64,000 nt of DNA from Ailanthus altissimus (Eukaryota; Streptophyta; Magnoliopsida; Sapindales; Simaroubaceae). This document shows positions 10,581 to 56,429 of this stretch, one piece after another. The notes under the pieces are model-generated. The model was not told where the DNA came from. It searched no databases and saw only the letters and a list, made by a program, of their open reading frames with translations. Every line of letters begins with the position of its first letter. Position 1 is the first letter of the stretch. The DNA is taken from positions 9,377,001 through 9,441,000 of the forward strand of contig OX327697.1 in assembly GCA_946807835.1 (NCBI GenBank), written 5' to 3'. A program made the translations under genes and the position numbers.

Positions 10581-11099
10581 TTAAAAATAAATTTTTTTAT
10601 TTGTTATATATTTTAGAAATTAGAATTGAAAAGTTAAGATAGACCAATAAATACCTTAAAATTTATAAAATATCCAAAATATAAATAAACTATAAAACAA
10701 AGGCTAAAACTAACCAAAAACCTCAATTTAACCCAATATGAAAAGATTTTTTTATATAAAAAAAGGCCAAACCATAAAAAAAAAAAATTGTACCAATTCA
10801 GGACATAGGTCTATTATAGGGGTTAATTAGGTATAATATTTTTATCTTCTAAACTTAATATTTGTTAGTTTAAATTAAGATTATTTGACTTTTTATGTGC
10901 TTTTTTATTATTTTGTAAGTTTGGAGTCAATGAAGTAAATATAGATAAAAATCTAAAGGAAATAAGGAAAAATATCAAAATTAATACAATAACTATGAAC
11001 TGTAATTCGTGATCAATAACTTGACTACAGTGCTAGCTAACAAATCTAATTGGCCCAATAAAGGCTATGTACGAAATTGAGGTGTAAGTATATGTATGT
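10581..11099. other. AT-rich spacer
   Basis: No gene. The part 10620-10750 resembles 55310-55440, which also follows a forward AT array, so it is the normal right flank of that repeat family. Confidence 0.5.
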
Positions 11100-14819: not shown

Positions 14820-15390
14820 TTTGAATTTTAAACTTAATAGAATTGAAATTAGATTAGAATTATAAAATTTAATAGAATTAAAATTAAAATTATAACATTT
14901 AATGCAATTAAAATTAGAATTGGATTTGGAATTATAAAATGTAATGTAATTGAAATTGCAACTATGAAATGCAATATAATTGAAATTAAAATTAGAATCG
15001 AAATTAGAATTATAATATTAAATGAAATTAGAATTGCAAATACAAAATTTTATGTAATCAAAATTGGAATTGAATTTAAAATTAAAATTATTAAGAGAAT
15101 TGAAATTGGAATTATAACATTTAACGTAATTAAAATTGAAATTATATTTAAATTTATAATATTTAACGCAATTAAAATTGAAAATGGATTTGAAATTATA
15201 ATATTTAACGTAATTAAAATCAAAATTAGAATTAGAATTATAACATTAATGTAATTGAATTGAAATTAGAATCGAAATTATAACATTTAACGTAATTGAA
15301 ATTGAACTTAAATTTTGAATTGTAACATTAAACGAAATTAGAATTATAATATTAAATGTAATTAAATCTAGAATAGAAATTGAAATTAAA
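14820..15390 (+). repeat. AT-rich tandem array, reverse orientation
   Basis: Core ATAACATTTAACGTAATT with intervening hexamers of the RAAATT type. The unit length is mostly a multiple of six, so one frame stays open across 14964-15254. That frame encodes only a repetitive Ile/Lys/Glu peptide and is not treated as a gene. Confidence 0.85.
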
Positions 15391-15704: not shown

Positions 15705-15709
15705 GTGTC

Positions 15710-17143
15710 TGATGAACACTTAAAATTACACATTTAATAAGAGTTTTACATGATTGTTTTGTATTACTAGTATATTTAATTTTCTTAACTTAAGTATGTT
15801 TATAATATTGTACTTAATTATCTTTTAACTATTTTGTGGCAGGTTCGGTAAAATGGGCATAACTTTCTACTTAAAGATCCAATTGAGGTGATTTTTGATC
15901 ATGTGCAGAGCTAACTCAATGGGCTAACATATTGGATTTCACAAAGTATTGGAAATTCAAGTGTTTAGAGGGTGAAAAATGGCCTAGAACAGAATTGATC
16001 TGCAGTACATGCCCAGTTTGAACAGTTATCAGTATTTGGCCCATAACTATAGAAATACGTATCTAATACGTATGAGATCACTCAATTTGGAAAGATAAGA
16101 GACTTATCTACAACTTGTATGTTTTGAGTGACAGCTAATTCGGATCACATCAATTCCAAATTGGATAATCAAGTGGGTGCCCAAGTGATAATGAATGCAA
16201 ATTATTTTGCCACCATTCTTGACTTTCATCAACCAAGTGGTTCCCTCCAAATTTGTCTCGATTTATCCATGTTTTTCTATAAATAGGTGGCTTTTTTATG
16301 CCTAAAGGATGTAATTAGAAAGTTAGAATTTAGTTCAAAATACTTTTCCTTTGTATCCATTTCCTTGTACTATTATTTCTCTTGTTTACTATTAAGTCAT
16401 CTTATTTCTTCTTCCATTTCTTTTCTTTTCATTTAGTTTTATTATGTCCAAATAATTTTTTTTAAGCTAAGGTAAAAGGGTGAAGCTCTTGGCAAGGTAA
16501 TAAGATATGTTTAATATTTATTCATGAATTTAATGCTTCATTTTTAAGTTATGCAAAATATATATGATGTATTTATTTTATTTGTAGAATTAATACCCTT
16601 TCTTCTAAAGTGGTGATTCTTGATTTATTATTGACAAACTTAATACTTGGCACAATAAATTCTTGAAACCATTTACAAGATTTGGTTTATATAACCTTTC
16701 TTGTAAAGTGGGAGTCTTGATTTATTGTAGACAAATATAAAGATTGGCATAATAAATACTTGAACCCATTTATAAGATTTGGTGTATAATAATTGAAAGA
16801 AATAAATACTAATCAATATATAAATGATGATGAACTTTAATTGCTATATTTTTCGGTTGGAACCTTCTTTGTGTGAGGATTCCAATTGAGTTATAGAAAA
16901 AAAAATTAAATATATTCTTACTTCTTATGCCAAGAGTGAATCCCTATAACCTTAGCTTTTTATTTGAATTGGTTAATTGAAATAATATTTGCAAATATCT
17001 TATACTGTATTAATTATCTTAAAAGTGTTTATAATTTGGAATTTTAATTCTACTTCCCTGTGGATCGACCCCGTTCTCATCGGGTTATTTATTACTTCGA
17101 CAATCCTGAACTTGGAAATAACTTCTATATTCTGGACGTGTTA
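15710..17143 (+). mobile_element. Gypsy 5' LTR
   Basis: 1434 bp, starts TGATGAACACTT and ends GTGTTA (the 3' LTR ends GTGTCA). Pairs with 26253-27687. A part of this LTR is also present inverted at 32853-33436. TATAAATAGG at about 16278 is a plausible core promoter, with transcription starting shortly downstream. Confidence 0.93.
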
Positions 17144-17149
17144 AGTTTT

Positions 17150-17167
17150 TGGCGCCATTGCCGGGGA
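17150..17167 (+). other. Gypsy primer binding site (tRNA-Asp)
   Basis: TGGCGCCATTGCCGGGGA, six bases after the LTR. It is complementary, with at most one mismatch, to the 3' end of plant tRNA-Asp, the primer typical of Athila/Tat-type elements. Confidence 0.85.
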
Positions 17168-17217
17168 CATAACGTTAATATTTTGTTTTATTGTTATTTG
17201 TTTGTTTATTTTATTTT

Positions 17218-17520
17218 CATGGAAGGCTGAGCCTCATACTCGTTATTTATTATTCGTTTTTTTATTTTTATTTTTATTTTTTATTTTTTATTTTCATGAA
17301 AGGCCGAGCCTCCTAACGTACTTTATTTATTATTCTATTTTTATTTTCGCGGAAGGCTGAGCCTCCTACTCTTTATTTCGTTTATTTATTATTTTTTTAC
17401 TTTTTATTTTCGTTTTTTTTAATTTTCATAGAAGGCCGAGCCTCCTAACGTACTTTACTTTATTTATTATTCACCTTTTATTTTCGCTTTTTATTTTAAT
17501 GGAAGGCTAAGCCTCCTACT
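17218..17520 (+). repeat. Five-copy hairpin repeat in the gypsy leader
   Basis: GGAAGGCTGAGCCTC or a close variant occurs at about 17221, 17300, 17351, 17430 and 17501, separated by T-rich runs. Each copy folds as AGGCT/AGCCT. Copies 2 and 4 share GCCGAGCCTCCTAACGTACT, while 1, 3 and 5 share CTRAGCCTC.TACT, so the array grew as a two-unit block. It lies between the primer site and the gag start at 17631. Role unknown. Confidence 0.8.
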
Positions 17521-17630
17521 ATTTATTTATATATTTTATTTACTTGTGTGTAATATTTTATTTTATTTACCTGTGCTTAATATTTTATTTGTATTATTTA
17601 TTGTTATTGTATTTTGTTTTATTTCTTTTT

Positions 17631-19331
17631 ATGAGCGGTTGGTTTCGAGATCCTAATTCTCATCGTTTAGTAAAAGGTAATTTCGAAACTTCCTTTGATA
17701 ATTTGTTAGATTCTCCTTCATCTTCTCATTCTTGACCAAATAACACCATGAGCGAAAATCAAATTGAGGGACTCATAGACCCAGGGGACAATCAGTCCCA
17801 ACATAATGACCATAACTGACCTAGGACACTTAGAGACTATATGAACCCTACACGAACCGGTGCACCATCTTGTTTAATTTTTCCACCGGATGCAACGCAT
17901 TTTAATTTTAAGTCAGGCATTATCCAACTTTTACCCACTTTTCATGGCTTAGATGCAGAGAACCCTTATCTACATCTAAGAGAATTTGAAGAAGTGTGTA
18001 ACACGTATAATGATCAAAATTGTAGCATGAACACAATTCGACTTAAGCTTTTCCCTTTTTCTTTAAAAGATAAAGTTAAAACATGGCTACAAAACCTTAG
18101 GCCATGATCCATTTCTTTATGGGATAAGATGCAACAACAATTCCTGAAAAAGTTTTTTCCCTCCCATAGAACAAATTCTTTCAAAAGACAAATCACCACT
18201 TTTGCCCAAAAACCAGGAGAGACCCTTTACCAATGTTGGGAAAGGTATAAAGAATTACTTAATACCTGTCCCCATCATGGTTTTAAAACATGGAGAGTAG
18301 TCTCAAATTTCTATGAGAGCTTAACACCTCAAGTTAGGCAAATGGTAGAAATGATGTGTAATGGAACATTTGAGAAAAAAGACCCAGAAGAGGCAATGAA
18401 CTATCTTGACTTACTAGCAGAAAATGCTCAAAATTGGGACACTGCTAGTACCTGTGAGGCACCTAACAAAAATCAAACCACTACATCTAGTGGGGGTATT
18501 TATCATCTTAAGGAAGACCATGACCTTCAAGCCAAATTAGCATCCCTTGCTAGAAAAGTCGAAACCTTAGAAATGAAAAAGAGTGGTCAAATAAAATCTG
18601 TTCAAGAAATTGTGTGTCACATTTGTGAAACCCATGATCACTCTACCAATGATTGCCCAACTTTGCCTGCATTTAGGGAATGTCTCCATGAACAAGCCAA
18701 TGTTCTAAACACGTTCAAATGGTCAAACAATAACCCATATTCATAAAACTATAATCTTGGATGGCGAAATCACCCAAATTTTAGTTGGAGGAATGACACT
18801 CAACCACAGGCCTCGCAACCACATTTCCAACCACACCAAAATTTTCAAAACCATCAAGGTTATGCACCATATGTCCCACCTCCTAGGAAAAATCTTGAAG
18901 AAACTTTGCATACGTTCATTGAAAAGTAAGAGTCTGTTAATTCTCAAAATGCTTAAACATTTGCTGATTTGAAAGATACTCTTGCTAAATTTGCATCTGC
19001 ACTGAACATTCATGAGAAAGGAAAATTTCCTTCTCAACCACAGCCAAACCCCAAAGGACAACATAACACAAATGTATGTAGTTCAGGAAACCAACACATG
19101 GATCAAGTTAAAGCAGTTATCACTCTTCGGAGTGGTAAAATTGTTGAAAAAGAAATTCCTAAACCTCATGAGGGCGATGAATCAATCTCTAAGGGTAAGG
19201 AAAGTGTTGAACCTACACTTAATGAAGAAAACACTAAACCCTCACCTCCACCCCCATTTCCTCATGCATTACGTAATACTAAGAAGATGAATCACAATCC
19301 TGAAATTTTTGAAATCTTCAAATAGGTAAAA
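17631..19331 (+). pseudogene. Gypsy gag (capsid/nucleocapsid), interrupted by stops
   Basis: Structural protein of the gypsy element. The likely start is ATG 17631 (MSGWFRDPNSH), in frame with everything that follows to integrase. The retrotransposon gag domain is clear at about 17850-18430 (NPYLHLREFEEVC, LFPFSLKDKVKTWL, and after one stop FFPSHRTNSFKRQI and GETLYQCWERYKELL). A CHIC-type zinc knuckle (CHICETHDHSTNDCP) lies at 18618-18662. A Pro/Gln/Asn-rich tail follows, with YNLGWRNHPNFSW at 18750-18790. The frame stays open apart from nonsense codons at about 17733, 17817, 18105, 18744, 18927, 18954 and 19323. These have the form expected from CAA, CAG, CGA or TGG changed by a transition, with 18744 least certain. 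No frameshift is needed. Confidence 0.88.
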
Positions 19332-19385
19332 GTTAATATTCCTTTACTGGATGCTATTAAACAGGTTCCATCTTATGCAAAATTT

Positions 19386-20216
19386 TTGAAAGACTTATGC
19401 ACAGTAAAAAGAAAACTGAATGTGAAAAAGAAAGTATTTTTAGCTGAACAAGTAAGTGCCATTCTTCAGAATAATAATTCTTTGAAATATAAAGACCCTG
19501 GTTGTCCTACAATTTCATGTATTATTGGAAGTCATAAAATTGAACAAGCCTTACTTGATCTTGGTGCTAGTGTGAATTTATTGCCGTATTCAGTTTATCA
19601 GCAGCTCAATCTCAGGGAGTTAAAATCAACATCTGTAACTCTTTTACTTGCCGATAGATCAATAAAAGTACCAAGAGAGACAATGGAGGATGTCTTAGTT
19701 CAAGTTGATAAATTCATATATCCTGTGGATTTTATCGTCTTGGACACAGAACCTGTCAAAGGATGTAATCCGATACCTGTTATTTTAGGTCGTCCATTTT
19801 TAGCAACTTCTAACACTTTGATTAATTGCAGGAATGGAGTAATGAAGCTTTCATTTGAAAACATGACACTTAAACTCAATGTTTTTAATATGTGTAAGCA
19901 ACCATATGAAGAGGAGGATGAAAGTGAAGAAGGTGACATGATTGAAATTATTGTGGAGGATCATATTCAAAAAGGGAGTTCTACCGATCCCTTAGAAATA
20001 TGTTTAATAAATTCATTTGAGTCAAATATACAATTAGATCCTGAAATATCTGACATATGTTCTTTACTTGACTGTGCACAGGTGATTGAAAATAAAAGAT
20101 GGAAACTAAAGTTTGAAGAATTGGGAGAAAATGAGGATAAAAAGAACGAAATTTCAAAGTTGGAGTTAAAACCTCTGCCTGAAGGACTAAAATATGCATT
20201 TCTTGAAGAGAAATAA
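19386..20216 (+). pseudogene. Gypsy aspartic protease region
   Basis: Continues in the gag frame. The protease active site reads ALLDLGASVNLLP, with D-L-G-A at 19557-19568, the form usual in Athila-type elements, where Leu replaces the Ser/Thr of classical DSG/DTG. The flap and second half follow (DFIVLDTEP, then VILGRPFLATSNTLI at about 19780-19825), ending in an acidic linker rich in Glu/Asp that connects to reverse transcriptase. The stop at 20214-20216 is TAA in the position of a likely CAA. Without it, protease and RT form a single polyprotein. Confidence 0.87.
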
Positions 20217-20225
20217 ACTTACCCC

Positions 20226-21100
20226 GTGGTAATCGCTTCTACACTCACAAGTGAACAAGAAGATAAGTTGATTAAATTATTGAAAATGCATAAAAATGCA
20301 ATTAGGTGGACTTTAAAAGACATAAATGGTATTAATCCTTTGATTTGCACACATAGAATACACCTAAAGGATAATGCCAAAACTTCCCAACAACCTCAAA
20401 GGAGATTAAATCCACATATGAAAGAGGTAGTGAGAGCTGAGGTTCTCAAATTACTTGAAGTAGGAATCATCTATCCGATCTCAGATAGTAAGTGGGTAAG
20501 TCCTACTCAAGTAGTACCAAAAAAATCTAGAATCACAGTTATTGAAAATAAAAAAAGTGAGTTAATACCAACTCGAGTCTCATCTAGTTGGAGGATGTGC
20601 ATAGATTATAGAAAATTGAACTTGGCTACTAGAAAAGACCATTTTTCTTTACCATTCCTTGATCAGATTATAGAAAGAGTAACAGGACATCCCTACTATT
20701 GCTTTCTAGATGGTTACTCTGGCTATTATCAAATTCCTATAGCACTAGAGGACCAAGAAAAGACTACATTCACATGTCCTTTTGGAACCTTTGCTTTTAG
20801 AAGAATGCCCTTTGGACTTTGTAATACCCCAGCAACATTTCAGAGATGTATGTTAAGCATTTTTAGTGACATGATTGAGCATTATTTAGAAGTTTTCATG
20901 GATGATTTAACTGTGTTTGAAAATTCTTTTGATAATTGTCTTGAAAACTTAGAAAATGTCTTAAAAAGATGTGAAGAAAAGAGTCTTGTATTGAACTGAA
21001 AAAAATGTCATTACATGGTTACTTCTGGAATTATTTTGGGACATATAGTATCTTCTAAAGGAATTGAAGTGGATAAGGCAAAAGTTGAACTCATTACACA
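20226..21100 (+). pseudogene. Gypsy reverse transcriptase
   Basis: Ty3/gypsy RT in the same frame as gag. Recognisable blocks in order are SKWVSPTQVVPKKS, SSWRMCIDYRKLNLAT, FSLPFLDQIIERV, CFLDGYSGYYQIPI, TFTCPFGTFAFRRMPFGL and the catalytic F-M-D-D at 20895-20906. All three catalytic aspartates (the one in FLDGYSGY and the pair in FMDD) are still present. One stop, TGA at 20997-20999, sits where TGG (Trp) is expected. The connection domain ([14 protein letters not shown], then [18 protein letters not shown]) follows from 21015. The FMDD form and the protease type point to the Athila/Tat side of plant gypsy elements. Confidence 0.92.
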
Positions 21101-21917
21101 TTTGCCTCCACCAAAAACAGTCAGAGAAGTCCGATCCTTTTTAGGACATGCTGGATTCTATAAGAGGTTCATAAAAAACTTTAGTGCTATATCTAAACCT
21201 CTTTGTAACCTCTTAGCAAAAGATGTATCATTTAAGTGGACTCAAGAGTGTCAAAATTTGTTTGAAAAATTAATTGGCCTCTTAATATCTGCTCCTATCA
21301 TACAATCTCCTGACTGGTCTTTACCTTTTGAGCTCATGTGTGATGCTAGTAACTATGCAGTTGGTGCTGTATTAGGACAAAGAAAGGAAGGTAAATCCTA
21401 TGTAATTTATTACGCAAGTAGAACTTTAAACAGTGCACAAATGAATTACACAACAACTGAAAAAGAACTACTTGCTGTAATATTTGCATTAGACAAATTT
21501 CGTTCTTACTTAATTGGTTCTTCAACTATTGTATTTACTGATCATGCTGCTGTAAGGTACTTAATGTCAAAACAGGATGCAAAACCAAGACTGATTCGAT
21601 GGATTCTATTGCTTCAAGAATTTATTATCACTATCAAGGATAAGAAGGGAGCTGAGAATGTTATTGCAGATCACTTATCAAGACTCACACCAGATTCATC
21701 AACAGAAATAACACCTATTAATGATTCTTTTCTCGATGAATTTTTATTTTCTACTGTTACAATGCCCTGGTATGCTAATATTGTTAATTTTCTTGTAATA
21801 GGAGAAATGCCACCTCAATGGAATGCTCAAGACAAAAGAAAATTTTTAACGGAGGTGAGAAAGTTTTATTGGGATGATCCTTATCTATTTAAATATTATC
21901 GTGATCAAATATTTTGA
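21100..21917 (+). pseudogene. Gypsy RNase H domain and linker
   Basis: RNase H part of the polyprotein, fused to RT. It shows [49 protein letters not shown] and [11 protein letters not shown], so the acidic residues of the active site are in place. After it comes the tether [19 protein letters not shown] that leads to integrase in this group. The only interruption is TGA at 21915-21917, where CGA (Arg) would continue the frame. I see no second, archaeal-type RNase H, which is found in some Tat elements. Confidence 0.88.
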
Positions 21918-23064
21918 AGATGCATACCCGACAATGAGGTAAATAAAGTTATTGAATTTTGTCATTCTGAAGCATGTGGGGGACATTTCTCATCAAAGAA
22001 AACAGCTGCAAAAATCTTGCAGTGTGGATTTTATTGGCCCACTTTATTTAAAGATACACATGCATTTTGTATAACTTGTGAAAATTGTCAAAAGTTGGGA
22101 TCAATTTCAAAACGAAACATGATGCCTTTGAACCCCATTCTTGTTATTGAAATCTTTGATTGTTGGGGGATAGATTTCATGGGACCATTTCCGTTATCAT
22201 TTGGATTTACGTATATCTTAGTTGCAGTAGATTATGTCTCAAAATGGATTGAGGCTATTCCATGTCGAAATAATGACCATAAAACAGTCATGAAATTTTT
22301 GAAAGAAAATATCTTAAGTCGATTTGGAATCCCTCGAGCCATTATAAGTGATGGGGGTAAGCATTTATGTAATAGACCATTTGAAACATTGGTAAAAAAA
22401 ATATGGTATTACTCATAAAGTTGCCACCCCTTATCATCCTCAGACAAGTGGACAAGTTGAATTAGCAAATAGGGAGATAAAACAAATTTTAGAAAAAACT
22501 GTAAACCCAAATCGCAAAGATTGGTCTTTAAGACTAATTGATGCACTGTGGCTTATCGAACTGCTTTTAAAACTTCATTGGGTATGTCTCCCTATAGGAT
22601 AGTTTATGGAAAACCTTGTAACTTACCTGTGAAACTTGAGCATAAAGCCTACTGGGCTATTAAAACTTTCAATGAAAATCTTGATTCTGCTGGACACATA
22701 CGTAAATTACAAATAAATGAACTTGAAGAATTGAGAAATGATGCATATGAGAATTCAAAAATTCATAAAGCTAAAATTAAAGCCTTTCATGATACAAAAA
22801 ATTCAGAGAAAAACATTTGACATTGGTTAGAAGGTTTTGCTTGATAATTCTCGACTTCACATATTCCCTGAAAAATTAAGATCAAGATGGAGTGGCCCTT
22901 TTATTGTGAAACATGTGTACCCTTATGGAACAATTGACATTGAAAATCCTAGAAATGGGAATGTGTTTAAGGTAAATGGGCAAAGACTCAAGCCGTTTCT
23001 AGAAAATCAAGCTTTTCATGAAGAATTTACGTTCCTATCGGATCCTTGTTACGAGACCAATTAA
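21918..23064 (+). pseudogene. Gypsy integrase
   Basis: Integrase with an HHCC zinc domain (HSEACGGH, then ITCENCQK at about 22070-22093), the DDE core and a C-terminal domain ending [11 protein letters not shown]. Catalytic residues are visible: Asp 22173-22175 (GIDFMGPFP), Asp 22350-22352 (IISDGG) and Glu 22459-22461 (QVELANREI), with the expected 35-residue spacing. It is damaged by an extra A in the A-run at about 22392-22399. A missing base near 22545 (DALW to AYRT) restores the frame. A third shift near 22815 precedes the C-terminal part, which also holds a stop near 22830. There is no chromodomain, as expected for Athila/Tat. Confidence 0.9.
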
Positions 23065-23278
23065 TCTTTGTTTTATATATTTTCATATTTATATATATTT
23101 ATTCTTCTTCTAACATTTTTTTTTTACTTGCAGGTTAATTTAGTAGTTTTGTTAAAGTTTTGTTTTGCACCCCGGTTAAGTGGCGGATAACGGTACTCCG
23201 TGATATTTCAAATCGGTTTTGTCAGTTTTCCATAATTACTGATATCTTCTCTTCTTTCCCCTTTTCTAAAAAAAAAAA
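23065..23278 (+). promoter_or_regulatory. Intergenic region with 3' splice acceptor
   Basis: A pyrimidine tract ending TTTTTTTTTACTTGCAG at 23117-23133, followed by GTTAATT, is a strong plant-style 3' splice acceptor. It lies between pol and the next ORF, the place where Athila-type elements splice to express an env-like ORF. A splice donor was not identified. TTATATATATTTATT at about 23087 could alternatively serve as a TATA box. Splicing is inferred, not shown. Confidence 0.45.
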
Positions 23279-23971
23279 ATGGATGACATTCTAAAAAATT
23301 TAAAAAAACGTTTTCCCTCATTGCCTCAAAATTCCTTAAAGAAAATTTACCAAGCAAGATGTGAAAGATTAAGGTTATTAATGATTATGAATATACCTGT
23401 AGATTTACGTTGGTTAATTGAAGCCAAAGTTATATTGACAGGTGAATTTTCAGACTCATTAATTTTCTACATGCCTGGCTTAGGTAAAAGCTCTTTTTAA
23501 AAAAAACGAAGAGCAAAACGATTAAATGTTTGTTACAAGTGTGCACACACGACTTGCAACACGCATTGCCGCACTTTAGGAATGGTGTCTGTAAATCGCG
23601 AAGATAAAATTAGGTTCATTAAGGATGGCCTGAGTAAGGAGTCTTTAAATAATATTTTATCGACTCTTGAGACGCATCCTAGTGGATATGTGCATATTGC
23701 AATTCATAAATTATGAGACATATTCCTAAAAGAACATGAGTGGTACAGACTCGGGAATCTGACTTTAAAAGACCCTGTTTGCCAATTTATAAGAAAATTG
23801 GATGGGAAGCCTATCCCCGACCCATAGAGAGCGTTTAAGTCGTTACTGAACGTAAAATCAGAGGAAGATGTGAGCCACAATCACAACTACTTGTATATAT
23901 TTACTATAGCTGTTATTTTTAAATGTTTCATTTCAAACTCAAACGTCTTTTCAATAATCAACCACATATAA
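23279..23971 (+). pseudogene. Cysteine-rich basic ORF in the env position (unknown function)
   Basis: 230 codons in one frame from ATG 23279 to TAA 23969-23971, broken by TAA at codon 74, TGA at codon 146 and TAG at codon 183. All three can arise from CAA, CGA and CAG by C-to-T, and the last could also be the true end. Residues 75-82 are a basic cluster (KKRRAKRL), directly followed by C85-x2-C88-x4-C93-x3-C97 with nearby His90 and His96, a likely zinc site. Next comes REDKIRFIKDGLSKE. If read to codon 230, residues 204-214 are hydrophobic. I do not recognise a family. The layout, a basic cluster just before a cysteine motif in a small protein, recalls the cysteine-rich nucleic-acid-binding proteins of carlaviruses, but the cysteine spacing differs, so this is analogy only. 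Confidence 0.5.
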
Positions 23972-23984
23972 TCCTTTTTGAAAA

Positions 23985-24119
23985 TTTTGCATTTTAAGCC
24001 GACAACCCATGTGACTTTTTCAGCTAACAAATTGAAAATTGGTAAAAGGTGTTGAATCTTGTATTTCAAGCCAATAGCCATGTGATTTAACTTTTCAATA
24101 CCTTTTGGCTCTATAAATA
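23985..24119 (+). promoter_or_regulatory. Putative LOG promoter: direct repeat, CCAAT and TATA box
   Basis: TATAAATA at 24112-24119 lies 66 bases before the LOG start codon, and CCAAT at 24071-24075 lies about 40 bases upstream of it. Upstream, 23985-24020 and 24057-24095 form an imperfect direct repeat about 72 bp apart (shared text of the type TTTTAAGCC..CCATGTGA). A start site near 24145 would give a leader of about 40 nt. This suggests transcription of the LOG ORF independent of the LTR; no expression evidence is available. Confidence 0.55.
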
Positions 24120-24184
24120 CATTGCATTATTTTTGCATCTTTGTACAAACTCAAAATCATTCAAGAGAGAGGGTGAGTGTAATC

Positions 24185-24838
24185 ATGGAAGGATCATCAA
24201 CTCGTAAATTCATAAAAATTTGTGTCTTTTGTGGATCTAGCCCTGGAAAAACTAGTGAGTTTATAGAAGCAGCAGAAACCCTTGGTAAGATGTTAGCTGA
24301 GCGCAATATTCATTTAGTATATAGGGGAGGTAGTATTGGATTAATGGGACGTATGGCAACCGCTGCACAAAATAATGGCAGTCGAGTTTTGGGTATCATA
24401 CCAAAAGCTCTAGCTGTTGGAGACATTGTAGGAAAAACAATTGGGGATGAGTTACAGGTATAATCAATGCATGAACGAATTTCTTTTATGCTTCGTAATG
24501 TTGATGCCTTCATAGCTCTACTTGGAGGTTTCGGAACATTGGAGGAAATTTTTCAAATTGTTTCATGGGCACAATTGCAAATCCATAAAAAACTAATTAG
24601 TTTGTTAAATGTTAATGGTTTTTATAATGAGTTGTTATCTTTTCTTGACTATGCAGTGGAAAAATAATTCGTCTCATCTGCAGCATGACAGATCCTCATT
24701 TCTGCTTCAACTGTTGATCAGTTACTCGATGAACTACAAGCTTTTACACCTCTATCTGATCCAACAATGAGTCAGATAGATTGGTATACTGATAACAGTG
24801 AAAAGAAACGCATGATAGATTTGACGCTTCGTCTGTAA
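24185..24838 (+). pseudogene. LOG-type cytokinin riboside 5'-monophosphate phosphoribohydrolase, intron-less, carried by the gypsy element
   Basis: LOG enzymes release active cytokinin bases from their nucleotides in the cytosol. This ORF has 217 codons, the normal length for plant LOG proteins. It shows KICVFCGSS (residues 11-19), YRGGSIGLMG (46-55), VLGIIPKAL (68-76), MHERISFM with R98 (95-102), and GGFGTLEE with E121 (114-121), then WAQLQIHKK and [10 protein letters not shown]98 and E121 correspond to the catalytic pair of the family. It is broken by TAA at codon 93, TAA at codon 161 and TGA at codon 168. Two key positions are altered: R47 where Gly is normal and L113 where the Pro of PGGxGT is normal. 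All five changes can be single C-to-T or G-to-A steps. Plant LOG genes have several introns and this has none, so it was probably captured through RNA. It sits between pol and the 3' LTR with its own TATA box and AATAAA. Confidence 0.88.
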
Positions 24839-24983
24839 CCTATCTATTTCTATGTATTTTTAAGCTTTTTTGTGTGGCTTGTTTTATTTTTTTTGTGTGG
24901 CTTGTTTTATTTTGTTGCAAGTTTAATTTCCAATAAAAGATGTTTCAGGTGATATCTTCTATATTTTACTCTTTCTATATTTT
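24839..24983 (+). terminator. LOG 3' UTR with poly(A) signal
   Basis: AATAAA at 24932-24937, about 95 bases after the LOG stop codon, preceded by a T-rich region. The stretch TGTGTGGCTTGTTTTATTTT is present twice in a row (about 24871-24914). It fits a plant cleavage/polyadenylation region for a separate LOG transcript. Confidence 0.5.
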
Positions 24984-25020
24984 GACATTGAGGACAATGT
25001 CTCAATCTGGTTGGGGGGAG
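24984..25020 (+). other. Hairpin plus internal polypurine-like tract
   Basis: GACATTG-AGGA-CAATGTC (24984-25001) is a perfect 7-bp hairpin, followed by TTGGGGGGAGG at 25011. The G-run is almost the same as the real polypurine tract before the 3' LTR. From memory, an ATTGAGGACAAT element followed by a G-run is common in plant Athila/Tat elements. It may be a second plus-strand priming site. Confidence 0.5.
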
Positions 25021-26242
25021 GATAGTTGATATATAATGTTAGTGTTAATTATTTTATTTTGTTGTTGTTATCACTTTGTTATGTAAAAAAAAACAATTAT
25101 CATGAATGGCGTGAGTAAAATGTTCATTTATGTATTCTTGAGACGCATTCTAGTTATAGAATGCCAGAGTAAAGAGTACATTATAAACTTTTGAAACACA
25201 TTCTAATTGGTTTATTTTTAATGCATTTTATGTATAATTGTTTGTTGCTTAAGTTTTTGGTAACTCTTGCGTAAATAAATTTGCTTTACTATCGATATAT
25301 GATTTCAAAATTGTTTAGTTTAAATCACTTTCTCTATTTAGGTTACTAAAGAATAACTTCTGAAATTCTTTCTTGAGAACAATACTAACCCTTGTGGTAA
25401 GATGGATGATTCAATATATATAGCTAAGAGAATTTCCATGTTTAAGTATACATATTATTTTCTAAACTCGCATATCTTTTGTGAGTGAGTGGAGAGATTT
25501 GAGATAACAGCTTACGAACTTTTATTGATCTTTTGAAATGGTTAATTTTTATTTAGAATGACATTATTTGGGATGATGAATGATTTGGTTGCTTAGCTGA
25601 AGGATAAAAAAAAATGGAAAAGTATTATGGTGATAAATTGCTCTTATTTTGTAATGATTCCTTATGTCTTTCAAAAAAGAAAAAAAATGAGTAAAAAAAA
25701 AATTAAAAAAAAAGAAAGAAAAGAAGTCAATTCAGTTCAATAAAGTCTTCATTCAATTTTAGAAGACTAAAGTTATTAGGAAGCAATCTTATCACCGAAT
25801 TCTATATTCGTAAGATTCGCATTAAATAATTAAAGTCTTGAAGCTGGCATTTGGCAATAATGGTTTGACTCTAAATATTTGATTTTTCTATCTTTGGATC
25901 AATGTTAGTTTGTCTATCTGTCCTTAAATATAACTTTTTCTTGAGCGATTATCTGTTTTCCAACTCCATGAGTGAAATCCTAAGTCATTAAACAAGTTAT
26001 TCACCTGTAAGGATATGGAGTTGAGGCTTTTACTTGAAATATTTTTAAGGCTATATATGTTGTGGTTTGTGGTAAGAAGGCTTTGGCTTAATTCACACAT
26101 ACACAAAAATATTTTTGGAAGTTATGATTGAAATAATCTTTTATAGCGATTGTGATTTTAAAACTAACGTTTTGTTTAAAATATTTAGGTAGTGTTCAAA
26201 TTTTATTTATGCTCGAATTGCTAGGGACTAGCAATAATCCAG
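25021..26242 (+). other. 3' untranslated region of the gypsy element
   Basis: About 1.2 kb without a credible coding frame on either strand. It contains an A-rich run (about 25672-25727) and otherwise ordinary AT-rich sequence. The 25924-26106 minus-strand frame shows nothing recognisable. Confidence 0.6.
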
Positions 26243-26252
26243 TTGGGGGGTG
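26243..26252 (+). other. Gypsy polypurine tract
   Basis: TTGGGGGGTG directly before the 3' LTR (TGATGAAC). This is the expected primer site for plus-strand DNA synthesis. Confidence 0.8.
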
Positions 26253-27687
26253 TGATGAACACTTGAAATTACACATTTAATAAGAGTTTTACATGATTGT
26301 TTTGTATTACTAGTGTATTTAATTTTCTTAACTTAAGTATGTTTATAATATTGTACTTAATTATCTTTTAACTGTTTTATGGCAGGTTCGGTAAAATGGG
26401 CATAACTTTCTACTTAAAGATCCAATTGAGGTCATTCTTGATCCTGTGCAGAGCTAGCTCAATGGGATAACATATTGTATTTCATAAAGTATTGGAAATT
26501 CGAGTGTTTAGAGGGTAAAAAATGGCCTAGAACAGAATTGATCTGCAGTACAGGCCCAGTTTGAACAGTTATCAGTATTTGGCCCATAACTATAGAAATA
26601 CGTATCTAATACGTACGAGATCACTCAATTTGGAAAGATAAGAGACTTATCTACAACTTTTATGTTTTGAGTGACAGCTAATTCGGATCACATCAATTCC
26701 AAATTGGATAATCAAGTGGGTGCCTAAGTGATAATGAATGCAAATTATTTTGCCACCATTCTTGACTTTCATCAACCAAGTGGTTCCCTCCAAATTTGTC
26801 TCGATTTATCTATGTTTTTCTATAAATAAGTGGCTTGTTTATGCCTAAAGGATGTAATTAGAAAGTTAGAATTTAGTTCAAAATACTTTTCCTTTGTATC
26901 CATTTCCTTGTACTATTATTTCTCTTGTTTACTATTAAGTCATCTTATTTCTTCTTCCATTTCTTTTCTTTTCATTTAGTTTTATTATGTCCAAATAATT
27001 TTGTTTAAGCTAAGGTGAAAGGGTGAAGCTCTTGGCAAGGTAATAAGATATGTTTAATATTTATTCATGAATTTAATGCTTTATTTTTAAGTTATGCAAA
27101 ATATATATGATGTATTTATTTTGTTTGTAGAATTAATATCCTTTCTTCTAAAGTGGTGATTTTTGATTTATTATTAACAAACTTAATACTTGGCACAATA
27201 AATTCTTGAAACCATTTACAAGATTTGGTTTATATAACTTTTCTTGTAAAGTGGGAGTCTTGATTTATTGTAGACAAATATAAAGATTGACATAATAATT
27301 ACTTGAACCCATTTATAAGATTTGGTGTATAATAATTGAAAGAAATAAATACTAATCAATATATAAATGATGATGAACTTTAATTGCTATATTTTTCGGT
27401 TGGAACCTCCTTTGTGTGAGGATTCCAATTGAGTTATAGAAAAAAAAAATTAAATATATTCTTACTTCTTATGCCAAGAGTGAATCCCTATAACCTTAGC
27501 TTTTTATTTGAATTGATTAATTGAAATAATATTTGCAAACATCTTATACTGCATTAATTATCTTAAAAGTGTTTATAATTTGGAATTTTAATTCTACTTC
27601 CCTGTGGATCGACTCCGTTCTCATCGGGTTATTTGTTATTTCGACAATCCTGCACTTGGGAATAACTTCTATATTCTGGACGTGTCA
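26253..27687 (+). mobile_element. Gypsy 3' LTR
   Basis: 1435 bp, TGATGAACACTT...GACGTGTCA, about 97% identical by eye to 15710-17143. It is followed by the target duplication GTGTC and then the continuation of the interrupted ~200-bp repeat (TTAAATAACC). Confidence 0.93.
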
Positions 27688-27692
27688 GTGTC

Positions 27693-29045: not shown

Positions 29046-31830
29046 AATAAAGAGAGTTTAACGTAATTAAAATTGAAATTAAATTTATAATTAGAATTAT
29101 TTAACATAATTAAAATTGAAATGAATTAACTTAATTAAATTTAGAATTGAATTTAAAATTAAAATTAAAATTATAATATTTAAGGTAAGTGAAATTGAAT
29201 TTAAAATTAGAATTGAAATTATAATATTTAACATGAGTGAAATGAATTTAAAAATTAGAATTGAAATTATAACATTGAATGTAATTGAAACTGAAATTAG
29301 ATTTAGAATTATAACATTTAACATAATTAAAATTTAAATTAGATTTGGAATTGGAATTATTTAACGTGATTAGAATTAAAATTGAAATTATTTAACGTAA
29401 TTAAAATTAGAATTAGAATTTAAATTATAACATTTAATATAATTAAAATTGAATTTAAAATTAGATTTAGAATTATAACATTTAACGTAACTAAATTAAA
29501 TTTAAAATTATAATTATAATTATAATATTTAACGTAATTAAAAATTAATATTGGAGTTGGAATTATAATATTTAACGTAATTAAAAATAAAATTAGATTT
29601 GGAATTGATTATTTAACGTAATTAAAATTAAAACTGGATTTGGATTTGGAATTCTTTGATGTAATTAAAATTGAAATTGAATTTAGAATTAGAATTATAA
29701 CATTTAACGTAATAAAAATTGAAATTAGATTTGTAATTATAACATTTAACATAATTGAATATTTGTATAGGGAATTGAAATTAAAACATTTAACATAATG
29801 AATTTAAAATTAGAATTGGAATTTTAATATTTAATGTAATTGAAATTGAAATTGAATTTTGAATTCAAAATTATAATATTTAACGTAATTAAAATTAGAT
29901 TTGAAATTATACAATTTAACATTATTAAAATTAAAATTCGATTTCAAATTATAACATTTAATGTAATTAAATTTAAAAATAGAATTGAAATTGTAACATT
30001 TAATGTAATTGAAATTGAAATTAGAATTATAAAATTTAACGTAATTGAGAATTGAAATTAAAATTATAACATTTAACGTAATTGAAATTAAAATCGAATT
30101 TCAAATTGGAATTATTTAATGTAATTAAAATTGAATTATTAATTGAAATTCTAAAATTTAATGTAATTGCATTTGAAATTTAAATTATTTAACGTAATTA
30201 AATTCAAATTGAAATTATAATATTTAACATAATTGAAATTTAAATTAGAATTAGAACTATAACATTTAACGCAATTTAAATTGAAATTGAAATTGAATTT
30301 AAAATTGGATTTAGAATTATAACATTTAACTAATTAAAATCGAAATTGGAATTTGAATATAACATTTAATGTTATTAAATTTAGATTTAGAATATTAACA
30401 TTTAACATAATTGAAACTGAAATTAGAATTATAACATTTAACGTAAATTAAATAAAATTTTGATTAAGAATTATAACATATATTTAATTAAAATTATAAC
30501 ATTTAACATAATTGATATTGAAATTAGAACATTTGGAATTATAATATTTAACGTAATTTAAATTTAATTTGAAATTAGATTTAGAATTTTAACGTAATTA
30601 AAATTATAATTGAAATTATAATATTTAACGTAATTGAAATTAAAATTAGAATTATAACATTTAATATAATTGAAATTAGATTTAGAATTTAAGGTAATTG
30701 AAATATAAATTAGAATTATAATAATTAACGTAATTGAAAGTGAAAGTGAAATTGAAACTGAAATTGAAATTATAATATTTAACGTAATTAATATCAAAAT
30801 TTGATTTGAAATTATAACCTTTAACGTAATTGAAATTAGAATTAGAATTATAACATTTAATGTAATTAAAATTGGATTTGCAATTATAACATGAAACGTA
30901 ATTAAAATTAAAATTGAAATTGAAATTATAACATTAATGTAATTGAAATTGAAATTAGATTTACAACTATAATATTTAATGTAATTAAAATTAAAATATT
31001 AAAATATAATATTTATCGTAATTAAAATTTAAATCTGATTTAGAATTATAAATTTTAACGAAATTTAAATTTAAATTGAAATTAGAATTGACATTATAAT
31101 ATTTAACGTAATTAAAAGTTAAATTGGAATTAGAATTATTTAATGTTATTAAAATTGAAATTGATATTGGAATTATAATATTTAACGTAATCAAATTTGA
31201 AATTTGAGATTGGAATGATAACATTTAATGTAATTGGAATTGAATTAAAAATTTGATTTGAAATTTTAACATTTAACGTAATTAGAATTAAATTAAAAAT
31301 TTGATTTGAAATTTTAACATTTAAAGTAATTGAAATTGTAATTGAATTTAGATTATAATATTTAAAGTAATTAAAATTATAATATTTAACGTAATTGAAA
31401 TTAAAATTAGTTTTAAAATTATAACATTTAACGTAATTGAAATTAAAATTAGTTTCAAAATTATAACATTTAACGTAATTGAAATTAATTTAAAATTAGA
31501 ATTAAAATTATAATGTTTAACATAATTTAAATTTAAATTTAATTTATAATATTTAACATAATTAAAATTGTAATTGCAATTATAACATTTAACGTTATTA
31601 AAATTGAAATTGAAATTGGAATTATAACGTCTAACGTAATTGAAATTAAATTTAAATTTAAAATTATAATATTTAACTTAATTTAAATAAATTAGAATTA
31701 TAACATGTAATTCAAATTTAAATGGAATTTAAAATAATAACATTTAATATAATTAAAATTAGAACTAAAATTATATCATTTAATGTAATTAAAATAGAAA
31801 CTAGATTCAAAATTATAACATTTAACCCTT
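29046..31830 (+). repeat. AT-rich tandem array, reverse orientation (2.8 kb)
   Basis: The longest complete array of the family: core TAACATTTAACGTAATT with a variable number of RAAATT hexamers. Frames on both strands (for example 29840-30055, and 30564-30797 on the minus strand) stay open because most units are multiples of six; their peptides are low-complexity Ile/Asn/Lys/Glu. Confidence 0.9.
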
Positions 31831-32045: not shown

Positions 32046-32849
32046 TTTGGACCATTGGATTTCCACTACTCAAATCCAATGGCTTAGACTTCCGGCTGCA
32101 TGGCTCAGCCGGAAGTACCATAACTTGACCCACAAATAAGATATAAGAATTAAAAACCATTATAAAAAAAAATGAGATTTTTTTTTTTAATTTGCTAATC
32201 ATGGTTATGAGCCTGTTAATGCAAATTTACAAATAAAATTATCAATACTTGATAATGATTATTCTATTTACAGGTTTTATATTGTAATTTTTAATTTTAT
32301 CCTTTTAGTAAGACATACACGTTAAACATTGATTTAAATGTTTAATTTTATATTTGTAAGTATTTATAGATACAATATTTATTATTTACTAATTTGATAT
32401 TAACATAAACATGATACATTGGATTTATAAAGTCAATTGCTCAATTTTTATAGTTTAGCATAAATTTATGAATTTTCATCCTAAATTTTTGTTATTTACA
32501 AGTATTAATTTTGTTATAATTTTATTTTTAATGTTGGATATACAAGTTTAATATTAATTTATAAATTTTATGTTAAAATTGTAAATTTAGCTCCGTTTAC
32601 AAATATAGTATTGTCATTTATAAGTTTATGACTAACTTACATGTGTTGCATTATATTTACAAGTCTTATATTTAGTTTATAAAATTAATCTTTATTTTTT
32701 ACATTTTAATTATAATTTATTTTCTCATTTAAATATATCTTTTTTTTATATAGATATTATGTTTTTCTTACAGATATTGCATTATAATTTTATTTTTTAA
32801 TGTTAAAATTACATATGAATGTCCACTTACAAGTTATATGTTATAAACA
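32046..32849 (+). repeat. Segmental duplication, copy 2, left part
   Basis: Matches 7567-8360 closely and is collinear until about 32849, where a 1.4-kb rearranged insert begins. Non-coding. Includes the two hairpins at 32052-32116. Confidence 0.8.
32052..32116. other. Two adjacent perfect hairpins (copy 2)
   Basis: Hairpin 1: CCATTGGATTT (32052-32062) pairs with 32072-32082, 11 of 11, 9-nt loop. Hairpin 2: ACTTCCGGCTG (32088-32098) pairs with 32106-32116, 11 of 11, 7-nt loop. The second is notably GC-rich for this region. Confidence 0.8.
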
Positions 32850-32852
32850 TGA

Positions 32853-33436
32853 ACATGCCACTTATTTATAAAAAAATATAGATAAATTAAAATAAATGAA
32901 AAGAGAACCACTTGGATGATAAAAGTCAAGAAAGGTAGCAATTATTTGCATTGATTATCATTAACGCACACACTTGATTGTCTAATTTGGAATTGATGTG
33001 GTCTGAATTACCTGTCACTCGAAAACTAAAATTGTAGATAAGTTTTTTATCTTTTGAAATTGAGTTTTCTCATACGTATTAGATACGTATTTCTATACTT
33101 ATGGGCAAATACTGATGACAGTTTGGACTGGGTTTATACTGCAGATTAGTTTTGTTTTAGACCATTTTTACTCTCTAAACATTCGAATTTTAAATGTCGT
33201 ATGAAATACAATATGTTAATCCATTAAATCAGCTTTTCACAGGATCAAGAATTATTTCAATTGGATTCCTAAGTAGAAAGTTATGCCAATTTTACCAAAC
33301 CTATGTAAAATAGTTAAATGCTAATTAGAGACAATATTATAAACATACTTAAGTTAGAGGGGTTAAAGACACTAATAATACAAAAAAAAATATGATGTAA
33401 AATCTTTATTAAATGTGTAATTTCAAGTGTTCATCA
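32853..33436 (-). mobile_element. Inverted fragment of a gypsy LTR
   Basis: The reverse complement is homologous to the first ~580 bp of the gypsy LTR (15710 onward) and ends at its true terminus TGATGAACA (33428-33436). Blocks such as CAGTTTGGACTGGG and ATACGTATTAGATACGTATTT are shared. It is more diverged than the two LTRs of the complete element, so it comes from an older insertion. Confidence 0.85.
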
Positions 33437-36007: not shown

Positions 36008-37743
36008 TGCCTTATTTCATATTACATGTATAATTTATTTTTATGTGTGGTAGCAATTGTTTATTTGGCACCAATTGCATATTGAATCTATATTTGTTAT
36101 TTTTATTAATTATGTGATGAATAATTGTGCTCATAATAATTCATGATTAAGTTAATTTTCGGTGATTCTTTAAATTTTTTTTTTGTAAATCAATTAAATG
36201 ACTTGAGATTTTTTATTTGTAATCTAAAGAATTTATTTTTTATTACTTTGTTGTAATTAAAAAAAAAGAAAAAAAAAGGAAGAAAAAAAGGTAAAAAAAA
36301 GGAGAAACAATAGGAGCGGCCTAAGTGAGAGGAGATTAATAGAGTTCATCTAAAAATTCTCACATAAGCCCCTCCTTGTTATAAATAATTTTTATTTAGG
36401 TCAAGAAGTTTTCATTCTGTATAAAAAAAACTCTTAAAAGTTTGTTAGTCGTGCCAATAGGCCATAATAGAATTTTTTATTTCACTCAGCCCCTCCAAGA
36501 CTTAGGTAATCATAATTTGGCTAGAGAACTTTGAAAAATTTACGAATAGGTTCCAAGTTTGATCCAAATGTGTTTTGGACTAATTTTAGGTATTTACAAA
36601 TTCAAAGTTAGCTCAAACTTCTTTTAATTTTGGTTCAATTTTATAAAATTAAATTTGGGCTATTTTATTAAAATTATTAGGTCTAAAAATATTTTTTATT
36701 TAAATTTTTTTTAAAGGACCAAAGAAATTTTAAAGTCTAAGATAAGCCTAATTTATTTTTAAAATAAGTGGACCAAAGAAAATTAAGAGGCCCAAAATCT
36801 AAGCCCATAAAAGGAGACAAGTAAGAAGATGTAACATTATAAAAGAGCTCAAATTGACTAAAAAGAAGACTTTGAAGAATTTAGGCTTAGTTTTTAATAT
36901 TTTTCTTCTTAAGAAAAGCCATGAATTATGAGTTATTTATTTATCTAGTTAATTAATTGGATAAATAACATGTCATATAGATTAAGGGTGCCACATTCAC
37001 ATGTCCATGCATAAAATATATCATATTGTATAACATTAATATTCTAATGAGATTAGGATAAGATTATTGTCATATTTTAATATTATATTAATTTATTATT
37101 TGACGTGGCCTTATTAATTATTTTATGAAAATAAAATTAGATATTAATAAGTAGAATGTCATTTTATAAATTAATTAAAAACTCTAAGAATTAAAATATT
37201 GAGTGAGAGAGGACTTTAGGCATAAAGCCCACGGCCTCCATTATTAATCCTATAGTAAGGTAGATTAATGCTTTGCCTCAAATTTCGTGAGCTTCCTACG
37301 GAGGGTATTAATCAGAACTAGTTACTAGATAGGATTTCCCTAAAGGATAAGATCCAATATAGGACTCATGCAAAATTGACCACCCTACGGTGGCTTTTTT
37401 AATTGAGAAATATAAATGATTGAAATAATGGTTGTACACTCAACTTAGGTTGATTGATATCCTCCCTACGAAGTTCTTGTCAATTAAATCTAAGGGATAA
37501 AGAATCGGTAGTTTATTATTATTTAATATGAGATATCGAGATAATAATAATAAATTAGTATGGTACTAGTTTGATTTATGACGGATATGACCACCCTACG
37601 GAGGCATATTCTGAATGAAAATTAGATTACCGATGTATAATGTAGTTAAAGAGTTCTACATAAATGCATTTCATGTATTCATGCAAAAGTAACATATGTT
37701 TTCAGATAATGTATGCTCATGTATGAATTTATTTTTCAGAATC
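36008..37743 (+). other. Copia-C 5' leader
   Basis: 1.7-kb untranslated leader. 36250-36310 is a purine-rich A/G run. 37265-37625 holds the stem-loop array listed separately. No coding frame. Confidence 0.75.
37265..37625 (+). other. Array of stem-loops with conserved CCTACGG apex (Copia-C leader)
   Basis: Four occurrences of a CCTACGGAGG-type apex at about 37293-37304, 37380-37394, 37461-37474 and 37590-37604. The flanks are different in each but partly self-complementary. Two clear cases are ACCACC/GGTGGC at 37379-37394, with a longer AT extension, and GGATATGACCACC pairing with GGAGGCATATTC at 37583-37609. Same architecture as in Copia-A/B but with an unrelated apex sequence. Confidence 0.6.
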
Positions 37744-38361
37744 ATGTCTTCATTCAACCCATTAGCATCTATCCTTAACCAAGACAAGTTAACTGAGAAT
37801 AATTATGTAGATTGGGAAAGGAACTTAGATGTTGTACTCACAGTTGAAAAGCACAAATATGTCTTGACTGATAAATGCACTCAAATACCTAATGAAAATG
37901 CACCCCAAAATGAAATAGATGCTTATAATAGTCAATTGACTAAGAGCCCATCTTTATCTTTTGGTCTCAATCTTAGAGGAAAGAGTAGTAAGAAGAATAG
38001 GAATAAGCTAAAGAAAGCATCTAATTCAGAGTTTGTGCAAATTCATAAAAAGGTAGTAAGGCTCAAAAGAAATTGTTTCCAATGTGGCATTAAAGGGCAT
38101 AGGAAGAGAAACTGTCATTTAGTTAAGTTTTCAATAACTAAAAGGATAGCTTCATCTTTTGGTAAAAGAATTTTCATTGAGACATACTTAGTGGTTGATT
38201 CTACTGATTCCTGGATAGTAGATTATGGTGTCACTAATCATATTTCCAACTCATTACAAGGGTTCCAGGAAACTAGACAACTTAATGAATGGGAGATTGG
38301 TCTAAGGCTAGAAAATGGCGTAACTGTTGCAGCCAAGGCAGTGGGAGTTTTTTTAACTTAA
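37744..38361 (+). pseudogene. Copia-C gag with protease start (internally deleted)
   Basis: Starts at ATG 37744 (MSSFNPLASILNQDKLTENN), a typical copia gag N-terminus, rather than at the upstream in-frame ATG 37696. Residues 1-75 match the gag start, then the frame jumps directly to a basic region (RGKSSKKNRNKLKKAS) and the zinc knuckle C-x2-C-x4-H-x4-C at 38074-38115 (CFQCGIKGHRKRNC). Most of the middle of gag is missing. The protease follows in frame, but its catalytic triad reads D-Y-G (38221-38229) in DSWIVDYGVTNHI where D-S-G or D-T-G is needed. The frame ends at TAA 38359 after a run of T; pol continues in a different frame. Non-functional. Confidence 0.85.
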
Positions 38362-39776
38362 TTTTGATGATTTTAGGACATTAGTATTAGATGATTATTT
38401 GTTAGTATCAGAACTCAAACATAATTTGATTTTAGTTAGTTATTTGAATAAATTTGGTTATTCTATTATTTTTGACTCAACTATGGTGATCAAAAGAAAT
38501 AAGTCGTTTATATGTTCCGGTACACTAGTTAACAATCTATACTGCATATCCTAAAATCAACTCACTACATGACACAGAATTGAATAATGAATCTAATCAC
38601 CATAAGAGGATTAAAGTGACTCCCACTAATCAAACGTATTTATGACATCTACGTCTTGGTCATATTAGTCTAGATAAGATCCAAAGACTGGTCAAAGATA
38701 GACCTTTGAGTTTATTAGATATTAAACCATTACCAGTCTGTGAATCTTGTATAGAAGGTAAAATGACCAGAAGACCCTTTAATGCTAAAGGTAATAGAGC
38801 TATTGAAACGTTAGAATTAGTGCACTTTGACGTGTGTGGGCCCATGAGCACACAAGCTAGAGGAGGTTATGAATATTTCATCACTTTCATTGATAATTAT
38901 TCTAAATTCGATTATGTGTACCTAATGCATCACAAGTCTGAGGCGTTTGATAAATTCAAAGAGTTTCAGGCAGAAATGGAAAGGCAATTTGAAAAACACA
39001 TAAAGGCATTTCGATCTGATCGAGGTGGCGAATACCTCTATAGTGAGTTTAGGACCTATTTGTTAAACAATGAGATATTATCCCAACTGACTGCACTAGG
39101 GTCACCCCAGTAAAATGGTGTAGTAGAAAGGAGAAATAAAACTCTTCTTGAAATGGTGAGGTCAATGATGAGTTATTCAACTTTACTTATCTCGTTCTAG
39201 GGTTATGCCTTAGAAACAATCATGTATCTTTTTAACTTAATTCCATCTAAGTCAGTCCCTAAAACACCTCTGGAAATGTGGATAGGACATAAACCAAGTT
39301 TACGTCATATACATATATGGGGTTGTCCAGCATATGTGCTAAAAAGGAAGACAAACAAGTTAGAATCTAAGTCAAAAGTTTATCTGTTTGTTGGCTATCC
39401 TAAAGGAACAAAAGGAAGTCTTTTCTATAATTCTTAAGATAAGAAAGTATTAGTTAGCACTAATGCAATCTCTCTTGAAGAAGATCATATGAAAGACTTC
39501 AAGCCTAGGAGTAAGATAATTCTTGATGAGTTATATGAGAACTTTAATATTATGTTTGATAGAGTCAATGAGTTAATTCTCAATTCAGATCATAATAACC
39601 AACTAGAGTTAGTTACAGAACAACAACCACCAGTACTCCGTCAAAGTGAGAGGATTATTAGACGTCCAACTAAGTACATGTTAATTGGAGAGTCATTTCA
39701 GGCAGTCTCTAATGAGCATGAACTAGATCCCACTAGTTATGATGAAGTAGTGGTTGATAAAGATACAAACCATTGA
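38362..39776 (+). pseudogene. Copia-C integrase region
   Basis: After protease remnants (LVSELKHNLILVSYLNKFGY at about 38400-38460) come the GAG-pre-integrase motif (LRLGHISLDKIQRLV, then CESCIEGKMTRRPF) and the integrase core. Catalytic residues visible are Asp in LVHFDVCGPM (about 38829), Asp in AFRSDRGGEY (about 39020) and Glu in GVVERRNKTLLEM (about 39127). IWGCPAYVLKRKTNKLESKS and VGYPKGTKG follow. From 38706 on, everything to 41303 is one reading frame broken only by stops, among them 39111 (TAA for probable CAA) and the TAG at about 39198 (probable TGG). The C-terminal linker (39489-39776) is variable and acidic, as usual. Confidence 0.88.
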
Positions 39777-56415: not shown

Positions 56416-56429
56416 ACATAACATAGTAA

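Follow-up and report, generated by a model that had tools for sequence, protein, structure and literature searches.

Does a plant retrotransposon carry an enzyme gene of the cytokinin pathway, and would such cargo serve the element? The question is raised by a 64,000-nucleotide stretch of Ailanthus altissimus DNA (contig OX327697.1, positions 9,377,001 to 9,441,000; hereafter the window), in which a sequence-only reading had placed a gypsy element carrying an intronless LONELY GUY (LOG) gene that could be expressed on its own. The reading we favour, with modest confidence, is that the window holds a dead copy of a plant-type gypsy element with a viral-type gene and a LOG gene as cargo, that this cargo is likely family-wide, and that the proteins of intact copies would help the element to spread.

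The element and its two cargo frames

The gypsy element extends over 15710-27687 (11,978 bases) of an AT-rich window (27.7% G+C), and its parts are listed in Table 1. It shows the features of Ty3/gypsy retrotransposons, namely two LTRs, a 5-bp target duplication, a polypurine tract, and Pfam domains in the order protease, reverse transcriptase, RNase H and integrase. The bounding LTRs and the perfect 5-bp duplication, GTGTC on both sides, are as originally described, and the polypurine tract can be added to them. The 5' LTR starts with TG and ends with TA, the 3' LTR ends with CA, and the candidate primer-binding site is presumably tRNA-Asp-like. The gag-pol frame (18108-22418) contains seven stops, ending at 18746, 18929, 18956, 19325, 20216, 20999 and 21917, before the stop at 22418; those at 18929, 18956 and 19325 break the remaining gag and protease region. 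The stop ending at 19325, the only one compared with a relative, corresponds to a Q in the predicted Xanthoceras protein P0003. Past 22418, the integrase region breaks up into short frames that overlap and match no integrase domain. From the LTR pair (1432 aligned positions, 29 transitions, 10 transversions, K2P 0.028) and substitution rates of 1.3e-8 to 6e-9 per site per year, the insertion is about 1.1-2.3 million years old.

We take the element to resemble the Athila lineage, in which Steinbauerova and co-workers reportedly placed, in 2011, two LOG-bearing elements with similarity to LOGL4. The Athila ORF-1 domain PF03078 had no match among the window frames scanned (24900-26250 and the gag stretch 18747-19325 lay outside the scan), an absence common in Athila, where the domain occurs in 16% of elements according to the accessible part of PMC6317226. 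Elsewhere in the window there are a partial related LTR on the minus strand (32825-33436, 79-81% identical to the element LTRs), a Ty1/copia remnant at 37696-41303 (integrase core E 1.4e-8, RVT_2 E 5.1e-12) and, among the matches listed, AT-rich minisatellite arrays in both orientations with a unit near 42 bases (10048-10584, 14853-15390, 29057-31826, 52886-53469, 54307-55113 and 56216-57503).

Table 1 Features of the gypsy element and its cargo, in window positions.
Feature	Position	Strand	Basis
Target-site duplication GTGTC, left copy	15705..15709		Perfect 5-bp match to right copy
5' LTR	15710..17143	+	97% identity to 3' LTR; right edge judged visually from where the 3' LTR ends
Candidate primer-binding site TGGCGCCATTGCCGGGGA	17150..17167	+	Printed sequence
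gag (Retrotrans_gag, PF03732, E 2.5e-11)	18108..18746	+	Pfam
Remaining gag and aspartic protease region, frame shared with 18108-18746	18747..20216	+	PF13650 E 1.8e-5 in 19326-20213
Reverse transcriptase (PF00078, E 3.4e-23)	20217..20999	+	Pfam
RNase H (PF17917, E 1.3e-37; PF17919, E 2.7e-33)	21000..21917	+	Pfam
Integrase (PF17921 and PF00665 in 21918-22415)	21918..23064	+	Pfam; open until 22418
First cargo gene, 182-residue frame of viral nucleic-acid-binding type (PF05515)	23279..23827	+	Pfam; P0121 alignment
TATAAATA, candidate core promoter upstream of LOG	24112..24119	+	Sequence; shuffles
Second cargo gene, decayed LOG frame, 217 codons	24185..24838	+	Homology; Pfam; P0001 alignment
AATAAA, weak poly(A)-signal candidate	24932..24937	+	Sequence; shuffles
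Polypurine tract region ending GTTGGGGGGTG, G-rich, adjoining the 3' LTR	26233..26252	+	Sequence
3' LTR	26253..27687	+	LTR alignment
Target-site duplication GTGTC, right copy	27688..27692		Perfect 5-bp match to left copy

Inside this LTR-bounded element, the proposed LOG homology is borne out: the best solved match of the frame is chain 2a33, an Arabidopsis LOG (residues 5-202 of 217, E 2.8e-60), and the PF03641 score, 117.5 bits, exceeds the cut-off of 27. Positions 24185-24835 can be aligned to the intact relative P0001 over its residues 1-217 at 89.9% identity, and as this alignment has no gaps or interruptions it supports a continuous, intronless coding frame, as had been claimed; plant LOG genes contain introns. 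What does not survive is the open frame. Three in-frame stops are present at 24461 (TAA), 24665 (TAA) and 24686 (TGA), the longest ORF with an ATG, GTG or TTG start has 113 residues, and the active-site motif reads LGGFGTLEE instead of PGGxGTxxE. The stops and the altered motif rule out an open functional LOG at this locus. The window copy is dead, its gag-pol being interrupted as well, and it no longer encodes a full-length LOG enzyme. What had been described may apply to the wider family, but it does not fit the window copy.

The flanking signals CCAAT (24071), TATAAATA (24112) and AATAAA (24932), which had been proposed as the gene's own promoter and poly(A) signal, were all found. TATAAATA occurs elsewhere on the plus strand of the element only at 16278 and 26821, once per LTR, and it fell within 200 bases 5' of the LOG ATG in 9 of 2000 dinucleotide shuffles (33 of 2000 for 342 bases). 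This TATA match above chance makes a putative internal promoter plausible. The poly(A) candidate is weaker: 87 of 2000 dinucleotide-shuffled versions of the 112 bases 3' of the LOG stop contained AATAAA too. CCAAT occurs 75 times on the plus strand of the window. Also 5' of the LOG ATG, TTTTTCAG (24016-24023) and GGGTGAGT (24171-24178) resemble, by eye, candidate splice acceptor and donor sites, and an exact tandem duplication of 23 bases lies 3' of the LOG stop (24866-24913).

Between the integrase and LOG sits another cargo frame, hereafter the partner, which the sequence-only reading had not mentioned. It aligns without gaps to all 182 residues of the intact protein P0121 (94.5% identity) and has premature stops at 23498 and 23714, so that neither cargo protein is encoded in full by the window copy. 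With X at the stops, it scores 31.4 bits for PF05515, passing the cut-off of 23, and 14.7 bits for Carla_C4, below the cut-off of 20.9. At E ≤ 0.001, 476 of 593 candidates are relatives of the partner (120 among the matches listed); P0121 and P0131 reach 31.7 and 33.8 bits for Viral_NABP (cut-off 23), and P0131 reaches 28.5 bits for Carla_C4 (cut-off 20.9). P0237 gave no Pfam match at E ≤ 0.001, although the relatives list assigns PF01623 to it. In an alignment of 13 chosen relatives, C85, C88, C93 and C97 are invariant or nearly so, behind a basic stretch.

The partner family thus resembles carlavirus-type cysteine-rich nucleic-acid-binding proteins (PF05515, PF01623) in that P0121 and P0131 score above the Pfam cut-offs, but the likeness is one of sequence and is partial, the PF05515 match in P0121 spanning only residues 39-125 of 182, and the function is putative. 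We claim no fold, because the predicted model is poor (pLDDT 52) and the partner profile matched no solved structure at E ≤ 0.1. Since it passes the Pfam cut-off, the partner is putatively a conserved cargo protein of viral nucleic-acid-binding type. Of the cysteine-rich proteins of mandariviruses, one is reported to act as a suppressor of local silencing and a second to trigger cell death (PMC12172455); by analogy, we infer that the partner may play a similar role.

Constraint and the adenine-binding position in related LOGs

At E ≤ 0.001, 1228 of 1494 candidates are LOG relatives, and the 120 best of these were listed; motif counts take 118 of them (P0002 and P0003 left out), and reduction of the 118 at 80% identity, with lengths of 195-260, gave 29 representatives. 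We call them element-type LOGs, a class assigned to most relatives by copy number, clade and similarity and not by visible LTRs. Broken copies are under-counted among them, as the source databases contain predicted ORFs.

The positions equivalent to Arg99 and Glu122 of CgLOG, the proposed catalytic residues (PMC4979012), are well kept. Numbered as in P0242, a protein of AtLOG3 type, they are Arg102 and Glu125 (CgLOG residues matched by a constant offset of 3, not by alignment), and each is retained in 28 of the 29 representatives. The picture is different at residue 103, which corresponds to CgLOG Lys100, described as part of the adenine-binding site (PMC4979012). Lys is present there in all 33 host and all four bacterial LOGs, whereas 26 of the 29 element representatives have Met, Ile or Leu and three have Lys. 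Read by pattern in the 120 listed relatives, the position holds M in 56, I in 22, L in 20, K in nine and another residue in four, with nine not read, so that M, I or L stands in for the adenine-contact lysine in 98 of 120. The window LOG has Ile. The three representatives that keep Lys (P0047, P0064 and P0075) are the earliest to diverge within the element clade. Judged from sequence, the lysine replacement may indicate a changed specificity, or a changed or lost cytokinin activity.

Such a pattern leaves room for a repurposed hydrolase, in which phosphoribohydrolase chemistry would persist with a different base or nucleotide as its target, cytokinin being no longer the main product. We regard this alternative as tentative. 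It would account for a replaced lysine alongside a conserved catalytic Arg and Glu, and for the basal position of the Lys-keeping representatives. However, other adenine-site positions are retained (M99 in 26 of 29 and E124 in all 29 representatives), and the products of tested plant LOGs vary without a clear residue signature, as far as the accessible text of PMC11593424 goes.

A second alternative is that LOG is a passive passenger, a processed copy acquired by chance and drifting neutrally. The decay of the window copy fits such cargo, with five premature stops in 399 cargo codons (three in LOG, two in the partner). From the LTR divergence, about 16.7 substitutions and 0.55 stops are expected since insertion (probability of five or more stops, 0.0003); given this excess, either the parent may already have been broken, and mobilised by the proteins of another element, or the LTRs may have been homogenised. 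In addition, 24 of the 118 listed relatives lack the intact active-site motif, the proline being replaced in 14 and even the loose pattern being absent in 10. Yet PGGxGTxxE is kept in the other 94, although the listed relatives are mostly 54-63% identical to the window frame, and many copies fall in one clade. The column entropy of element-type LOGs follows that of host LOGs (Spearman 0.43) and of bacterial LOGs (0.41) over 186 columns, and the 61 columns that do not vary among three bacterial rows (L003 omitted, being close to L002) average 0.57 bits in the elements, compared with 1.23 for the other 125. At the level of protein sequence, this shows site-specific constraint on element-type LOGs, which is no substitute for dN/dS since database ORFs are stop-free by nature. 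We therefore consider a neutral passenger improbable.

Copy number, context and origin of the element-type LOGs

Reevesia pubescens accounts for at least 46 of the 120 listed relatives, which include P0001 (90% identical to the window LOG); these 46 are distinct loci spread over 18 chromosome numbers. The 90%-identity clusters hold up to 52 members; other named sources among the listed matches are Populus, Xanthoceras, Diplodiscus and Paulownia. The sequence-only reading had itself raised a one-off neutral capture as the competing outcome. The protein data speak against this, because the relatives are many, dispersed in Reevesia, and mostly keep the catalytic residues.

Element context is seen only for the window, for P0003, in which LOG is fused to a gag-region piece (65.7% identical to window 19263-19367, E 5.5e-9), and probably for one contig of 8723 bases. 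That length is the longest contig value for both P0039 (LOG) and P0131 (partner), with ENA among the sources and the lists compared by eye, which suggests that the two genes share a contig. Chance matches of contig values do occur, since equal LOG and partner values of 734 and 905 bases are too short for both genes; matches at 1161, 1386 and 1558 bases were judged uninformative. Viral contigs searched with P0001, with the partner and LOG alignments, and with the reverse transcriptase and protease frames of the window yielded no plant element; the LOG alignment matched one locus (L005, 39% identical over residues 119-205). The 21 stretches matched in genome contigs gave four bacterial LOGs, used as outgroup only.

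A LOG phylogeny, which had been suggested as a check, sets the element-type LOGs apart. In a tree of 67 rows picked by similarity (the window, 29 element representatives, 33 of the 120 listed host LOGs and four bacterial LOGs), in which host groups beyond LOG1/3 and LOG8 are under-sampled and long bacterial branches are flagged, the representatives and the window form a single clade (support 99/96), the host LOGs form another (99/98), and none of the 33 sampled host LOGs falls inside the element clade. This fits a single origin of the element-type sequences. The donor gene is not singled out, because AU tests reject neither a grouping with LOG1/3 (p 0.267) nor one with LOG8 (p 0.335). Relatives occur in rosids and also in Paulownia, an asterid, a spread that implies either an ancient origin or horizontal transfer. 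Two poplar proteins named LOGL10, P0041 and P0078, sit among the element-type LOGs in the listed relatives, so that some of the LOG genes annotated in plants may belong to transposons.

The least probable explanation, and one we regard as quite unlikely, is a lineage-specific expansion of host LOGs from which the window element recently captured one member: the few seen element contexts and the permissive AU tests are compatible with it, but the spread of loci over Reevesia chromosomes, the size of the clusters, the absence of sampled host LOGs from the element clade and the published element consensuses with a LOG-family domain (in the accessible part of PMC9289625) argue against it.

The predicted model of P0001 (mean pLDDT 83, pTM 0.79; last 29 residues unreliable) has the LOG fold, lying 0.9 Å from 2a33 chain B with a target TM of 0.96. 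Element-type LOGs thus share fold and catalytic residues with AtLOG3 (2a33) and AtLOG8 (1ydh), but differ from them in forming a separate clade in the sampled tree, in the replaced adenine-contact lysine of 26 of 29 representatives, and in the intronless frame of the window.

Known systems and significance

The sequence-only reading had proposed a new type of retroelement cargo. LOG-carrying gypsy elements are in fact a known kind, because PMC9289625 reports a YgdH domain in gypsy consensus sequences of Citrus sinensis and C. clementina, and of Populus trichocarpa with a filter off; it links YgdH to LONELY GUY and cites Steinbauerova et al. 2011 for an earlier report. These share with the window a gypsy element with a LOG-family domain, but the accessible part of that account is silent on position, any partner gene, conservation, phylogeny and residue changes, and the window copy is decayed. 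The same paper describes Phalaenopsis gypsy elements with AlkB, an m6A demethylase active in vitro, which are likewise plant gypsy elements with a host-type enzyme as an additional ORF, but differ in the enzyme, in their size (25 kbp) and in having no hormone link. A literature search of open-licence papers, made through search listings rather than whole texts, found no report of the viral-type partner or of the lysine change, and LOG, cytokinin, lysine decarboxylase and nucleic acid binding gave no match in the accessible part of PMC7264820. The idea of a hormone enzyme as cargo is thus strengthened by the wider relatives and made less new by the literature.

Many relatives of both cargo proteins are intact, which makes a family-wide cargo likely. 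Under the favoured reading, in which such cargo helps the element to spread, LOG would be expressed in intact copies either as part of the LTR transcript or through the internal TATA site. The enzyme would strip phosphoribose from cytokinin nucleotides or from a related N6-modified nucleotide, the latter being offered because most listed relatives have lost the lysine that contacts adenine. A local rise in free cytokinin would then promote division or a meristem identity in those cells through which new insertions pass to the offspring. The cysteine-rich partner, for its part, would be a nucleic-acid binder and may dampen silencing, an activity known from some cysteine-rich proteins of plant viruses. 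Both the hormone activity and the benefit to the element are what we infer from these data. A bolder form is possible, though we hold it doubtful: an old, widespread lineage would keep under selection a two-gene cassette for host manipulation, in which an anti-silencing viral-type protein is joined to a hydrolase derived from LOG, its adenine pocket remodelled, acting on cytokinin or another N6-modified nucleotide and favouring dividing, germline-forming cells.

Two specific, testable predictions follow from the conserved partner of viral type and from the altered adenine contact. If intact copies are active, a selfish DNA family would produce an enzyme of plant-hormone type in several flowering plants, poplar among them, and could distort LOG gene counts in genome papers, as the naming of P0041 and P0078 illustrates. 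If true, this would tie transposon biology to meristem growth and offer a test case for the manipulation of host development by retroelements.
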